Below are positions 1 to 3,100 of a stretch of 5,372 bases of DNA, one piece after another. The notes beneath the pieces were generated by a model, which was not told where the DNA came from, did no database searches, and was given only the letters and a program-made list of their open reading frames with translations. Source of the stretch: a bacterium HR25. Lineage in GTDB: Bacteria; Chloroflexota; Dehalococcoidia; SM23-28-2; HRbin24. The translations under genes were made by a program, and so were the position numbers. How positions within the stretch are numbered: the first letter of the stretch is position 1; each line of letters opens with the position of its first letter. The stretch spans positions 1 to 5,372 of the forward strand of contig BEIB01000052.1 in NCBI GenBank assembly GCA_002898615.1, in the 5' to 3' direction.

Positions 1-88
1 AGAACTCCAGGTTCTCCCGGTAGGCCTGCAGGCGGGAGAGGTCCATGCTGGCCAGGCGCTGGGGCAGGGGGACGGTCTCGGCGACCAC
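1..88 (-). CDS. Probable phage portal protein, N-terminal fragment (runs off left edge)
   Basis: Only the first 29 codons are present. A GTG start at 88-86 follows a strong ribosome binding site (AAAGGAGGT at 105-97, 9 nt gap after GGAGG). The peptide begins VVAETVPLPQRLASMDLSRL and continues with QAYRENLEF. Phage portal proteins often begin with a short leader followed by a helix of the form L-x-x-Y-R-x-x-L-x-F-Y, and the visible residues fit that up to the edge. Its place after a large terminase and a small HTH protein also fits, since the portal gene normally follows the terminase. The portal forms the dodecameric ring at the capsid vertex through which the terminase pumps DNA. The ribosome binding site overlaps the stop codon of the preceding gene (97-95), which suggests translational coupling. 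The reading frame is convincing; the portal identity is inferred from position and a short motif. Confidence 0.55.
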   Translation of the reverse strand, partial: MVAETVPLPQRLASMDLSRLQAYRENLEF

Positions 89-94
89 GCTATG

Positions 95-412
95 CTACCT
101 CCTTTCGGCGGCCGGCCGCTGGCGGGCCTTCTCCAGGGCCCGGAAGACGGTGCGACGGGAGACGCGGAAGCGGCGGGCCAGCTCCTCTATGCCCACCCCC
201 TGGAGGCGCAGGGCGATGATCTGCTGGTCGCGGTGGGCGTTGAGGATGGCCCGCAGTCCACCCGGCTCATCGTATCGGCAGCGGGGCAGGGGGCAGGTGA
301 GGCAGTGAGGGTGGATATCGCACCCCTCGTCCCGGTATTCCGTGTGCTCTGGCAGGGCGTCCTCCCGCACCCTGGGCAGGGCCGTGAGGCCCAGGGCCTT
401 CTCCTTCACCAT
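95..412 (-). CDS. Small Cys/His-cluster helix-turn-helix protein of a phage packaging operon
   Basis: A 105-aa protein of unknown precise function. The N-terminal half holds a cluster with C31, H34, H36, C37, C40 and C45 (C-x5-C-x2-C-x4-C, with CPLPRCRYDEP at 40-50), which looks like a small zinc or possibly Fe-S binding site. The C-terminal half (about 62-96) is a helix-turn-helix of the resolvase/sigma-like kind: EELARRFRVSRRTVFRALEK, with the recognition helix in VSRRTVFRALEKAR. DNA binding is therefore likely. The start at 412-410 overlaps the end of the terminase gene (ATGGTGA, 7 nt) and has a strong site GGAGGTGAG at 424-416; the stop TAG lies inside the next gene's ribosome binding site. 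Lying between TerL and the portal with no recognisable small terminase, it might recognise packaging DNA or act as a regulator; both are inference. The gene is convincing, the role is not known. Confidence 0.8.
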   Translation of the reverse strand: MVKEKALGLTALPRVREDALPEHTEYRDEGCDIHPHCLTCPLPRCRYDEPGGLRAILNAHRDQQIIALRLQGVGIEELARRFRVSRRTVFRALEKARQRPAAERR

Positions 413-1800
413 GCTCTCACCTCCGATAGCCGTCCGCGGGCGGTCCGCGGCCCCTGGAGGCCCCGGGCCGCCTCCACCGTCAGGGCCAGGCTCACCAGAT
501 AATCGTCGTGGCCCTGGCCCGCCTCCACGTAGAAGCTCATGGTGCGGTTGGGCCGGTAGGCGGCCCGCGCCAGCTCTAGCTCTCGCCAGAGGGCGGCCGC
601 CTCGGCGGAGCCGTCCGGGGCGTAGAGCTTGAGGCGACCGCCGTTGATGGCCGCCAGGAGCCCGTAGCCGAGCCGGGACTTGGTCTCCGCCGTGAAGCGG
701 AGGGCCGCCACCGTCTCCTCGCCCAGGGAGCGGGCCAGGAGGCGGGCCAGCGTCTCCCCCAGGCCGCTGGCGTCCACCGCCAGCCGCCGCACCCGCCAGA
801 GGTGACGCAGCAGGTCCACCAACTGGGCGTGGAGGGCCTCGTGGGGCTCGCCCGTCCAGGCACGGTGCTCCACCACCTCCAGCCGGGGCTCCTGGACGAA
901 GGCGTCCGGGGGCGGCCAGTGGACGCGGGCAATGGTGAGGACGGTGGCGTCGTGCTGGCCCGTCGTCCCTGGCAGGTCCTGGCCGCCCACGTCCAGCCCC
1001 GCCACGTAGACCTCCCCTGGCCGGGGCGCCGCCTGGCGGGGGTGCCCACCCCGGAGCTGGGCCAACTGGCCGGGCGAGAGGAGCCTGCCCCCGCCGCCGA
1101 TGCTGCGGAGGGTGTACTGGGTCAGGAAGAGGGGGTGCTCCTCCCCCAGGCGCTGCCGCTCCCCCTCCACGAAGCGGGCATAGGCCGGGCTGTGCTCCGC
1201 CACCGCTGTCCAGTCGAACTGGAAGTGGCGGCGCACGCCGTCCCGCCGCTCCAGCTCCAGATGGTGCTCCCGCATCTCCTCCAGCATGGTGGTGCCGTCC
1301 CAGGGAGTGCCATAGAAGACGATGGTGGCGCCGTGGGCGGCCGCCATGGGCAGGAAGTCCCGCTGGAACTTCTCACGTCCCACCTCCTGGGCCTCGTCCA
1401 CCTCCAGCAGGAGGGTGGCGGTGTGCCCCACCACGTGGGCCCCGGGCTCGGCGGAGAGGAAAAGCTGGCGGGCCCTCCCCAGGCGCACGGCCCGTCCCTC
1501 CTCCAGGGCCGCCAGCTCCCTCAGCCCCGCCTCCTCCAGGCGCTCCCAGAGGCGGCGCAGGCTGATGCGGGCCTGGGGGTCGAAGGTGGGGGCGCACTTG
1601 ATGAGCACCTCCGGCCGATGCAGGTGGCGGGCCAGCAGGTAGAGCTCCACCTGGGCCGAGAGCTCGTTCTTCCCCGCCTGACGGGCCATCATCACCGAGA
1701 GGGTGAGGGCACGGCGTTCCCGCACGCTGGCCACGATGGCCCGCGCCACCGCCACCTGATAGGGCCGCAAGACGATGCCGAGGGGGGACGACCTGGCCAC
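406..1800 (-). CDS. terL: Phage terminase large subunit (ATPase and nuclease)
   Basis: A 464-aa protein of normal length for large terminases, the motor that pumps viral DNA into the procapsid and cuts it. The ATPase half shows a Walker A-like motif ARQAGKNE at 39-46 (K44), a Walker B LLLEVDEAQE at 130-139 (D135, E136) and a coupling motif FYGTPWDGTT at 162-171. The nuclease half has the three acidic sites of an RNase H fold: D270 in VAGLDVGG, D343 in LAVDASGLGE, and D432/D433 in GHDDYLVSLAL. All key residues are present, so the protein looks intact. The GTG start at 1800-1798 has GGAGGTG at 1812-1806 with a 7-nt gap after GGAGG. It is the first gene of the leftward operon and begins about 20 nt after a promoter whose spacer holds a GAAC-N4-GTTC palindrome. 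No small terminase lies upstream. Base composition resembles the host genes nearby, so the element is either old or from a similar host range. Confidence 0.93.
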   Translation of the reverse strand: MARSSPLGIVLRPYQVAVARAIVASVRERRALTLSVMMARQAGKNELSAQVELYLLARHLHRPEVLIKCAPTFDPQARISLRRLWERLEEAGLRELAALEEGRAVRLGRARQLFLSAEPGAHVVGHTATLLLEVDEAQEVGREKFQRDFLPMAAAHGATIVFYGTPWDGTTMLEEMREHHLELERRDGVRRHFQFDWTAVAEHSPAYARFVEGERQRLGEEHPLFLTQYTLRSIGGGGRLLSPGQLAQLRGGHPRQAAPRPGEVYVAGLDVGGQDLPGTTGQHDATVLTIARVHWPPPDAFVQEPRLEVVEHRAWTGEPHEALHAQLVDLLRHLWRVRRLAVDASGLGETLARLLARSLGEETVAALRFTAETKSRLGYGLLAAINGGRLKLYAPDGSAEAAALWRELELARAAYRPNRTMSFYVEAGQGHDDYLVSLALTVEAARGLQGPRTARGRLSEVRAW

Positions 1801-1822: not shown

Positions 1823-1852
1823 AAGATAGAACAAATGTTCCAGAAACGTCAA
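1823..1852 (-). promoter_or_regulatory. Leftward promoter of the terminase operon
   Basis: On the minus strand, -35 TTGACG (1852-1847) is followed by an 18-nt spacer and -10 TATCTT (1828-1823), a good housekeeping-sigma match. Transcription should start near 1816, just before the terminase ribosome binding site. The last 12 nt of the spacer are a perfect GAAC-N4-GTTC palindrome that abuts the -10, so a bound repressor would block RNA polymerase directly. Confidence 0.75.
1829..1840. promoter_or_regulatory. SOS box-like operator 1 (GAACAAATGTTC)
   Basis: A perfect GAAC-N4-GTTC palindrome. The centre AAAT also fits the RNRY centre of the Bacillus LexA consensus CGAACRNRYGTTCG; only the outermost C/G bases differ. 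It lies between the -35 and -10 of the leftward promoter, touching the -10. Binding by LexA is inferred from the motif; a phage repressor with similar specificity is the alternative. Confidence 0.75.
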
Positions 1853-1890
1853 GAGGCGGCTGGCAACGCCCCGCCTGCCCCGGGAGGGGG

Positions 1891-1920
1891 TTGACAGTGA
1901 GAGAATGTTTGTTCTATTTT
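1891..1920 (+). promoter_or_regulatory. Rightward promoter of the zinc-ribbon gene
   Basis: A perfect -35 TTGACA (1891-1896), an 18-nt spacer and a -10 TATTTT (1915-1920). Predicted transcription start is near 1927, giving a leader of about 35 nt before the ATG at 1961. The spacer repeats the layout of the leftward promoter: 6 nt, then a 12-nt GAA-type palindrome, then the -10. Confidence 0.75.
1903..1914. promoter_or_regulatory. SOS box-like operator 2 (one mismatch)
   Basis: GAATGTTTGTTC. Read on the minus strand it is GAACAAACATTC, which matches GAAC-RNRY-GTTC except for one base in the second arm. It occupies the final 12 nt of the rightward promoter spacer, exactly as operator 1 does in the leftward promoter. 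The imperfect arm suggests weaker binding, perhaps helped by operator 3. Confidence 0.65.
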
Positions 1921-1922
1921 AA

Positions 1923-1934
1923 GAACACAAGTTC
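1923..1934. promoter_or_regulatory. SOS box-like operator 3 (GAACACAAGTTC)
   Basis: A perfect GAAC-N4-GTTC palindrome, extended by one base each side (AGAAC/GTTCT). It starts 3 nt after the rightward -10 and covers the expected transcription start. Its start is 20 nt from that of operator 2, close to two helical turns, so repressors on both sites would sit on the same DNA face. Confidence 0.72.
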
Positions 1935-1960: not shown

Positions 1961-2125
1961 ATGGCTAGCGTAAGCCCCGCCGTCCAGATGCGTCTGCCCC
2001 TCTTCCCCCAGCGCCGCTGCCCCTGCTGCGGCGGCCCCGTGGCCCGTGGCGAGGGCCTCCTCGCCTGCGTCATCTGCGGCTTCGCCCACCCGCTGCGGCC
2101 GCGGCGGTCCGTCCGGAGGGGCTAG
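1961..2125 (+). CDS. Small zinc-ribbon protein, divergent partner of the terminase operon
   Basis: A 54-aa basic protein. Two CxxC pairs, C20-P-C-C23 and C36-V-I-C39, are 12 residues apart and each is followed by glycine (CPCCGG ... CVICG), a classic zinc-ribbon layout. The tail (RPRRSVRRG) is strongly basic, which would suit nucleic acid binding. The ATG at 1961 has a strong site GGGAGGTG about 5 nt upstream, and the gene follows the rightward SOS box-like promoter at 1891-1920. I do not recognise a named family. Because it shares its control region with the terminase operon it could belong to the phage-like element, for example as a small transcription factor. That is inference, and a host zinc-ribbon protein of unknown function is equally possible. 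No clear terminator follows, so transcription may continue into scpB. Confidence 0.72.
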   Translation: MASVSPAVQMRLPLFPQRRCPCCGGPVARGEGLLACVICGFAHPLRPRRSVRRG

Positions 2126-2154
2126 GCCCTCTGGAGCCTCCCCTCGCCGGGCGC

Positions 2155-2160
2155 TATCAT
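2155..2160 (+). promoter_or_regulatory. Possible -10 box upstream of scpB
   Basis: TATCAT matches five of six bases of the -10 consensus. The best -35 with a 17-nt spacer, TGGAGC (2132-2137), matches only three of six. A start near 2167 would put the 5' end at or next to the GTG at 2168, allowing leaderless translation. Weak evidence. Confidence 0.35.
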
Positions 2161-2169
2161 TCCCGGAGT

Positions 2170-2190
2170 GGGCGCCCGCCCCGGGCGCCC
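2170..2190 (+). repeat. Perfect 9-bp inverted repeat just before or within the scpB start
   Basis: GGGCGCCCG (2170-2178), a CCC loop and CGGGCGCCC (2182-2190) form a very stable GC hairpin. There is no following T run, so it is not a standard intrinsic terminator. It ends 7 nt before the ATG at 2198 and lies inside the reading frame if scpB starts at the GTG at 2168. It may hinder or set translation initiation. Confidence 0.6.
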
Positions 2191-2197
2191 GGCGAGC

Positions 2198-2728
2198 ATG
2201 GAAGAGGAGCGACCTCCCCTCAAAACGGTGCTGGAGGGCATCCTCTACCTGGCGGATGCCCCCGTCTCCCTGTCCCGTCTGGCCAGCGTGGCCGAGGCGC
2301 CTCCCGAGGCCGTGGAGGCGGAGCTGGAGGCCCTGGCCCAGGAGCTGCGGGGCCGCGGCGTCCGTATCCAGCGCAGCGGCGACGCCGTGCAGATGGTCAC
2401 CGCCCCCGAACTCGCCCCCTACGTGGAGCGCTTCCTGGGCGTCGCCCAGGACGACCGCCTCTCCCGCGCCGCCCTGGAGACCCTGGCCATCATCGCCTAC
2501 AAACAGCCCATCACCCGCAGCGACATCGAGGCGATACGGGGCGTGGGCTGTGAGCGGGCCATCGCTTCCCTCAAGGCCCGGGGCCTCATCACCGAGGTCG
2601 GCCGCGCCGACCGCCCGGGTCGGCCCTACCTCTACGGCACCACCTTCCGCTTCCTGGAGCACTTCGGTCTGGAGCGCCCCGAAGACCTCCCGCCCTTGAC
2701 GCCGCCGCCAGACCAGCAGGAACATTAA
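2198..2728 (+). CDS. scpB: Segregation and condensation protein ScpB
   Basis: A 176-aa protein. ScpB is the dimeric winged-helix (kite) subunit that, with the kleisin ScpA, completes the SMC condensin that compacts and separates the chromosome in the cytoplasm. The first winged helix covers about residues 7-75 (LKTVLEGILYLADAPVSLSRLA). The second holds the family signature LSRAALETLAIIAYKQPIT at 88-106 followed by RSDIEAIRGV, and GRPYLYGTTFRFLEHFGL at 141-158. Length is typical. The start is uncertain: the ATG at 2198 gives the usual short lead-in, but there is no ribosome binding site, and the in-frame GTG at 2168 could be used on a leaderless transcript, adding 10 residues. scpA, usually the neighbour, is absent; the upstream neighbours here are a zinc-ribbon gene and a phage packaging operon. 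The function is firm, the start is not. Confidence 0.95.
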   Translation: MEEERPPLKTVLEGILYLADAPVSLSRLASVAEAPPEAVEAELEALAQELRGRGVRIQRSGDAVQMVTAPELAPYVERFLGVAQDDRLSRAALETLAIIAYKQPITRSDIEAIRGVGCERAIASLKARGLITEVGRADRPGRPYLYGTTFRFLEHFGLERPEDLPPLTPPPDQQEH

Positions 2729-2785
2729 AGGGCGAGGCCGGGCACCTTACCCTAGGCTGCCTGGAGAGGTGGAGGGGCCACGAGC

Positions 2786-3100
2786 ATGACGGTGGGGCTG
2801 CTGCGCATCTGGCTGCGCCTGCCCGAGAACCACTCCCTCAAGGGCAAGCGACAGCTCGTCCGCTCCCTGACGGCGCGCCTGCAGAGCCGCTTCAATGTCT
2901 CCGTCGCTGAGGTCGACGACCAGGACCTCTGGCAGATGACCTCCCTGGGCATCTCCTGCGTCACCAACTCGGAGCGCCACGCCCACGAAGTCCTGGCCGC
3001 CGTCGTCAGCTACATCCGCTCCCAACGCCTCGACCTGGAGCTGGTGGACTACCGCACCGAGGTGATCCACGCCCTGAGCGGCAGCCGCTTCCAGCTCTAG
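2786..3100 (+). CDS. DUF503 family protein (YlxP-like)
   Basis: A 104-aa protein of the DUF503 family, named after Bacillus YlxP, which is encoded in the nusA-infB-rbfA region; its biochemical role is not established, though that location hints at translation or ribosome biogenesis. The family marks are the N-terminal strand and helix with HSLKGKRQLVRSL at 16-28, the central FNVSVAEVDDQDLWQ at 36-50 and SLGISCVTNS at 53-62. Length is normal. The ATG at 2786 has GGAGGGG at 2771-2777, about 10 nt from GGAGG to the start. It lies 57 nt after scpB on the same strand and could be co-transcribed. Its stop TAG (3098-3100) shares the palindrome CTAG with the stop of the converging hydrolase gene, so the two genes overlap by 4 nt. 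Confidence 0.93.
   Translation: MTVGLLRIWLRLPENHSLKGKRQLVRSLTARLQSRFNVSVAEVDDQDLWQMTSLGISCVTNSERHAHEVLAAVVSYIRSQRLDLELVDYRTEVIHALSGSRFQL

Follow-up and report, generated by a model that had tools for sequence, protein, structure and literature searches.

Gene transfer agents are known, to our knowledge, from few lineages. In temperate phages such as CTX phi, coliphage 186 and GIL01, host LexA blocks a phage promoter directly and holds an early switch. LexA of Dehalococcoides reportedly uses the operator GAAC-N4-GTTC, of the gram-positive type. In the cited account this motif is given as that of gram-positive-type LexA (PMC3323433). Alphaproteobacterial gene transfer agents are described as vertically inherited phage-derived genes (PMC10883770). 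The best-studied ones respond to population and cell-cycle signals via intermediates (PMC6473078), and the cited passages name CtrA, GafA or RogA as the controlling factors (PMC9632790, PMC6473078). A link with LexA or DNA damage has precedent, since Caulobacter gene transfer agent particles are reported to promote survival after DNA damage (PMC9632790) and a LexA site is predicted at the gene transfer agent cluster of Dinoroseobacter shibae (PMC6473078).

We analysed a 5,372-nt stretch of DNA from bacterium HR25 (hereafter the window), in which a terminase and a small zinc-ribbon gene diverge from one intergenic region. The nearest locus in the genome collection was that of bacterium HR24 (HRbin24), whose terminase is 78 percent identical. 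Positions 1823-1934 are very probably, on the comparative evidence given below, a control region between two units that would be repressed by host LexA and opened by DNA damage. The features of the window are as follows.

2 to 88, minus strand: probable first part of a portal gene that runs off the edge of the window (judged by its resemblance to the beginning of the L003 portal, a phrog_64 match)
95 to 412, minus strand: small helix-turn-helix (HTH) protein encoded between the terminase and portal genes, with a weak likeness to late transcriptional activators of phages
406 to 1800, minus strand: terminase large subunit (PF17289)
1823 to 1828, minus strand: -10 element TATCTT of the leftward terminase promoter (consensus scan)
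1829 to 1840, minus strand: LexA-type box GAACATTTGTTC, perfect, inside the spacer and abutting the -10 of the terminase promoter
1847 to 1852, minus strand: -35 element TTGACG of the leftward terminase promoter (consensus scan)
1891 to 1896, plus strand: -35 element TTGACA of the rightward zinc-ribbon promoter (consensus scan)
1903 to 1914, plus strand: LexA-type box GAATGTTTGTTC, one mismatch, abutting the -10 of the zinc-ribbon promoter
1915 to 1920, plus strand: -10 element TATTTT of the rightward zinc-ribbon promoter (consensus scan)
1923 to 1934, plus strand: second rightward LexA-type box GAACACAAGTTC, perfect, lying over the point where the rightward transcript is expected to begin
1961 to 2125, plus strand: zinc-ribbon protein, about 54 aa, four cysteine ligands
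2198 to 2728, plus strand: scpB (PF04079), the next gene 3' of the zinc-ribbon gene
2786 to 3100, plus strand: DUF503 gene, its order kept in several relatives

Three promoter-like sites were found in the window by consensus scan, against 0.2 expected, and two of them are the terminase and zinc-ribbon promoters. In both, 6 nt separate the -35 from the box and the spacer measures 18 nt. A preliminary description of this DNA had reported two divergent promoters with embedded boxes, and its coordinates, 18-nt spacers and abutment of box and -10 were all reproduced. Both boxes that it listed were recovered; the third, at 1923-1934, had been overlooked. The window thus holds three boxes with at most one mismatch (1829-1840, 1903-1914 and 1923-1934), and three matches anywhere in the window were reached by 3 of 200 shuffles. 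Promoter-plus-box sites with one mismatch allowed are expected at about 0.003 per window-sized DNA, as estimated from dinucleotide shuffles. The two promoters had also been called mirror copies. That term suits their layout but not their origin. A duplicated promoter pair was ruled out: G001 and G083 carry the terminase and zinc-ribbon promoters on separate contigs, and each promoter there has a gene and a box of its own. The terminase-proximal promoter and box recur just upstream of the terminase in L002, L005, L007, L012 and L015, whose terminases are 63-69 percent identical. In L007, what looks by eye like a tRNA, with the selenocysteine-type anticodon TCA, lies upstream of the predicted LexA promoter of the terminase.

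The LexA question was addressed in the genomes of relatives, namely 22 genomes with a related terminase, of which 20 contain a LexA DNA-binding domain. Among 21 strong lexA matches (eight weak ones were left out), GAAC-N4-GTTC was located at most 100 nt upstream of the start of the LexA domain in 18. The three lexA genes without a box belong to G007, G019 and G022; G007 has a box at its terminase promoter yet none at lexA. All 21 LexA proteins retain an Ala-Gly site and the serine and lysine motifs, which we take to be the self-cleavage site and the catalytic residues. Judged by these motifs, LexA of the relatives is predicted to be capable of self-cleavage. Two lexA-like genes are present in G001 (C1 and C98; L081 and L101), each with its own upstream box.

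Other candidate members of the regulon were less uniform. The recA gene usually belongs to the LexA regulon, though not to every one, and hence does not define it. A box was found at recA in 3 of 22 genomes (G011, G013 and G014) in a search stretch that began at a conserved anchor within the gene and reached 420 nt upstream, with G010 and G009 left out. The regulon is not a textbook one, because so few genomes carry the box at recA. Y-family polymerase-like genes had a box in three of six chosen genomes; one of these genes was confirmed by Pfam and two were judged from sequence likeness, and G012 has just a 56-residue reading frame downstream. The preliminary description had named lexA, recA and other SOS genes as the places where the motif should be sought. 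For the relatives this proved right at lexA, partly right at the Y-family polymerase-like genes and mostly wrong at recA.

The bare palindrome was not enriched: over the 22 genomes the forward motif matched 510 times and its reversed control 587 times. Discrimination came from promoter context only, not from the bare motif. A strict pattern, TTGAC-N5-8-box, was searched with the reversed pattern as control. It gave 13 sites against 0 in six genomes (G001, G002, G005, G007, G010 and G012) that had been picked after boxes were noticed at several of their terminase loci. This choice, not being blind, slightly lowers our confidence in LexA control. Eight of the 13 fell on phage modules, two on the zinc-ribbon gene and three on Y-family polymerase-like genes. 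Extended to 148 genomes of the class, the search returned 117 sites, spread over 70 genomes, and 29 for the control. Of these 117, 25 coincided with terminase, head-protein or zinc-ribbon places already known, and 92 stand unassigned. G128 carried 16 strict sites, compared to 0 to 3 in each of the other 147 genomes. An expanded damage regulon and a repeated element are suggested as alternative sources of this surplus.

A set of 161 loci (80 genome loci, 80 viral-collection loci and the window; 1.86 Mb) was scanned with a stricter pattern comprising a box of the form GAAC-N4-GTTC or GAAT-N4-GTTC, TTG as the -35 and a TA directly adjoining. This yielded 39 sites. To 37 of them a phage-module or zinc-ribbon gene of that strand could be assigned; the other two lay elsewhere. 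The assigned sites were found within -34 to +83 nt of the tblastn-estimated gene start in 36 cases and at 475 nt in one. With any one mismatch tolerated the count rose to 86, and 71 of these lay at -60 to +150 nt from where a phage-module or zinc-ribbon gene is estimated to start. In ten dinucleotide shuffles of the 1.86 Mb the means were 0.0 perfect and 1.0 one-mismatch promoter-box sites; the context pattern had been refined after hits were seen, and the shuffles were run with the final pattern. The site counts are not counts of independent events, because of this refinement and because near-duplicate loci are present (e.g. L010, L011, L013 and L014). Genes with a promoter-box encode a small membrane protein, a holin-like protein, the terminase, the HTH protein and the scaffold preceding the head protein. 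At least one promoter-box near a recognised module start was seen in 47 of the 80 genome loci and 5 of the 80 viral loci. None was seen there in the other 33 and 75, respectively, partly because contigs end at that point. In Dehalococcoidales the phage-module box often reads GAAC-N4-GTGC. This form is seen in the Dehalococcoidia loci L041, L048, L068, L069, L072 and others, possibly a shift of operator preference.

A profile built from the window, G001 and G002 zinc-ribbon proteins found matches in 81 of the 148 genomes; many were the ends of long reading frames, and the three long frames tested were all class II ribonucleotide reductases. Locus counts were made on the best 20 matches. In 19 of these 20 loci, the 330 nt that precede the first cysteine pair hold at least two boxes with no more than one mismatch; in the sole exception (G138) the contig reaches only about 140 nt upstream. 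In G002 the gene faces the terminase, like in the window. In G056 it faces a scaffold-capsid module over a similar intergenic region, and the unusual box preceding it is identical to the window 12-mer GAATGTTTGTTC. In G001 and G083, where zinc-ribbon gene and terminase are on separate contigs, both zinc-ribbon boxes are retained. Among the viral contigs, no relative of the zinc-ribbon protein was confirmed. The scpB gene was present in 7 of the 20 loci, directly downstream in G001, G083, G056 and G007. Zinc-ribbon gene, scpB and DUF503 follow each other in the window (1961-3100) and in L308, L310, L311 and L314. With this order found in several genomes, a chromosome-segregation gene may be under LexA control, scpB perhaps being co-transcribed with the zinc-ribbon gene.

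The zinc-ribbon family and the C-terminus of class II ribonucleotide reductase have a cysteine array in common. The G002 protein matched the end of NF006417 (positions 716-758 of 759, E 3.4e-9), as did the G092 protein (E 5.7e-8); the window protein reached an E value of 0.022 only. In the cited account of the enzyme, the role of zinc ligand is given to four of six C-terminal cysteines and that of electron transfer to the other two (PMC5704485). The window protein keeps the four zinc ligands and lacks the third and sixth cysteines, so that it falls short of the six-cysteine array. Both transfer cysteines were kept in 14 of the 21 small zinc-ribbon proteins compared. In the passages cited, a separately expressed cysteine-rich domain failed to restore enzyme activity with TCEP (PMC5704485), which speaks against a simple in-trans role of the zinc ribbon. 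The class II ribonucleotide reductase of G001 (L328:207-3629) appears to contain an intein.

Phage head and tail genes were found in the host chromosome. Terminase, portal, head protein and scaffold were recognised by families (in PHROGs, portal phrog_64, major head protein phrog_212 and scaffold phrog_1793) and a tail hub by its predicted fold. A head protein was found in 21 of 25 genomes searched, in G017 as a 33-residue piece only. The protein of about 650 residues encoded after portal, head and scaffold gave no family match. A predicted model of the L269 protein (mean pLDDT 87, 18 sequences) resembled hub proteins of phages and of injection systems (best E 1.2e-15) and contains an inserted propeller of the lectin or sialidase type; among the matches listed, the top ranks were shared by hub folds and lectin/sialidase propellers. 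The last structural gene (L269:17181-19124, modelled, and L271:13047-15005) is thus predicted to encode a tail hub with a lectin-like propeller, which would perhaps recognise recipient cells. The HTH protein of the window (95-412) has a cysteine cluster ahead of the HTH, as have those of L003 and L010. It could be the small terminase subunit or a late activator.

These genes can lie apart. G010 has its terminase on C22 and its head protein on C39, with a separate box for either side. In G083 (by Pfam) and G001 (by likeness), portal and scaffold are separated by a phosphotriesterase-like gene, and the scaffold once more carries a box of its own. Host neighbour genes vary between lineages, as read by eye from translations. 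The nearest terminase in the phage collection was 31.6 percent identical over 74 percent of the query, and the nearest head proteins, from Pseudomonas phages, were 38.2 percent identical at best. The target named in the preliminary description, the terminase operon, is supported and too narrow: it is one of several box-bearing modules in a vertically inherited phage-like gene set.

Three other explanations were weighed against LexA control of such a set. Chance or general promoter similarity draws on the frequency of GAAC-N4-GTTC, which alone is common and does not exceed its reversed control. It fails on the locus survey, where 37 of 39 stricter sites found their gene, 86 one-mismatch sites stood against 1.0 in shuffles and 71 lay near gene starts of interest; the recurrence of the terminase-proximal site in five loci likewise opposes it. 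We rejected this explanation as having next to no probability, in line with the preliminary view that the arrangement was not accidental. A repressor other than LexA, be it a phage or Xre-type regulator or a LexA paralogue, might read a LexA-like palindrome. Such a reader could be sought in the second lexA-like gene of G001 or the small HTH protein of the cluster, and the GTGC variant of Dehalococcoidales would suit it. The same genomes, however, have the box at lexA and at Y-family polymerase-like genes, and we consider another repressor improbable. The reading of the palindrome as a LexA site, proposed in the preliminary description, is the one favoured by comparison with the relatives: the arrangement of promoter and box recurs at the terminase, is specific in its promoter context, and is accompanied by boxes at lexA (18/21) and at the zinc-ribbon gene (19/20).

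The other alternative concerns the genes rather than the operator. An ordinary temperate prophage could have captured host LexA control, with a cluster that is mobile or recently decayed; all family-matched genes of the cluster are phage-like, and relatives are present in the viral collection. The terminase and RecA trees of 21 genomes nevertheless had 17 of 18 splits in common, the one discordant terminase split having a support of 0.094. Terminase and RecA distances correlated at 0.90, and none of 5000 permutations gave a value as high. Vertical inheritance was thus found, for the terminase only. A prophage is further opposed by a search for recombinases: no tyrosine or serine recombinase was found within 20 kb, on the same contig, of known terminase or head-protein places in ten genomes, a limited test because several contigs are shorter than 20 kb. 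The nearest recombinase match lay about 23 kb from the G056 head-protein gene. Modules split by other genes or placed on separate contigs also argue against a prophage, as does a related terminase that occurs mostly in single copy in 89 of the 148 class genomes, some of the matches being weak or fragmentary. We therefore regard a prophage as unlikely, though less so than another repressor. The evidence points instead to a gene set that is vertically inherited and gene-transfer-agent-like, and probably under direct LexA control. A gene-transfer-agent role, with packaging and transfer putative, fits the vertical inheritance, the dispersal of modules and the recombinase missing from the contigs scanned.

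Under LexA control of these genes, LexA dimers would sit on the box in each -35/-10 spacer and, on the rightward side, on a second box over the start point, keeping RNA polymerase off both promoters. DNA damage would lead to RecA filaments and LexA self-cleavage, and both units would open. The leftward output would be the terminase-HTH-portal module of a chromosomally inherited, phage-derived gene set of Dehalococcoidia. Its other modules (membrane/holin-like and scaffold-capsid-tail hub), often fitted with the same type of switch, would be opened together with it. The rightward output would be the small zinc-ribbon protein, perhaps also scpB-DUF503. DNA damage may in this way make cells build phage-like particles, and the phage genes would most likely serve particle production in damaged cells. 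A broader proposal, to which we give an even chance, is that of an undescribed, chromosomally inherited gene transfer agent throughout the Dehalococcoidia, its scattered packaging, membrane and capsid modules each switched by LexA. Damage would release DNA-filled particles with a lectin-like tail hub, and the same signal would turn on a free-standing zinc ribbon that descends from class II ribonucleotide reductase.

Literature on the class, genus or phylum together with gene transfer agents or LexA gave nothing on this gene set, at the level of titles and abstract openings and with preprints and most subscription papers outside the search. Predicted control of the LexA type, repeated at scattered modules and across one Chloroflexota class, appears to be new. 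Here a vertically kept phage-like gene set of another phylum is apparently wired straight to LexA at several separate promoters. Such wiring, if true, would couple particle production directly to DNA damage, and the purpose of the particles (repair templates, sacrifice or exchange) becomes a testable question. A recurring, uncharacterised small zinc-ribbon protein would, if the reading is true, join the damage response of the class.

Compared to known systems, the zinc-ribbon protein resembles the cysteine-rich C-terminal domain of NrdJ, the class II ribonucleotide reductase, in its cysteine array and in the match of family members to the NF006417 end. It differs in standing alone, in having predicted LexA boxes and, in the window, in having lost the two electron-transfer cysteines. 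Temperate phages repressed by LexA differ from the present loci, where head and packaging modules bear the boxes and no recombinase was found near them in ten genomes. The operators are like those of gram-positive LexA (Bacillus subtilis, mycobacteria) in having GAAC-N4-GTTC at lexA. In contrast to these, recA is mostly without a box here, the box is set in the promoter spacer, and most strict sites in the six chosen genomes fall on phage modules. The alphaproteobacterial gene transfer agents (RcGTA, Caulobacter, Dinoroseobacter) are alike in their vertically inherited phage-derived genes and in a link to DNA damage or repair. The present, putative system differs from them in belonging to another phylum and in the predicted LexA boxes on several of its dispersed modules.
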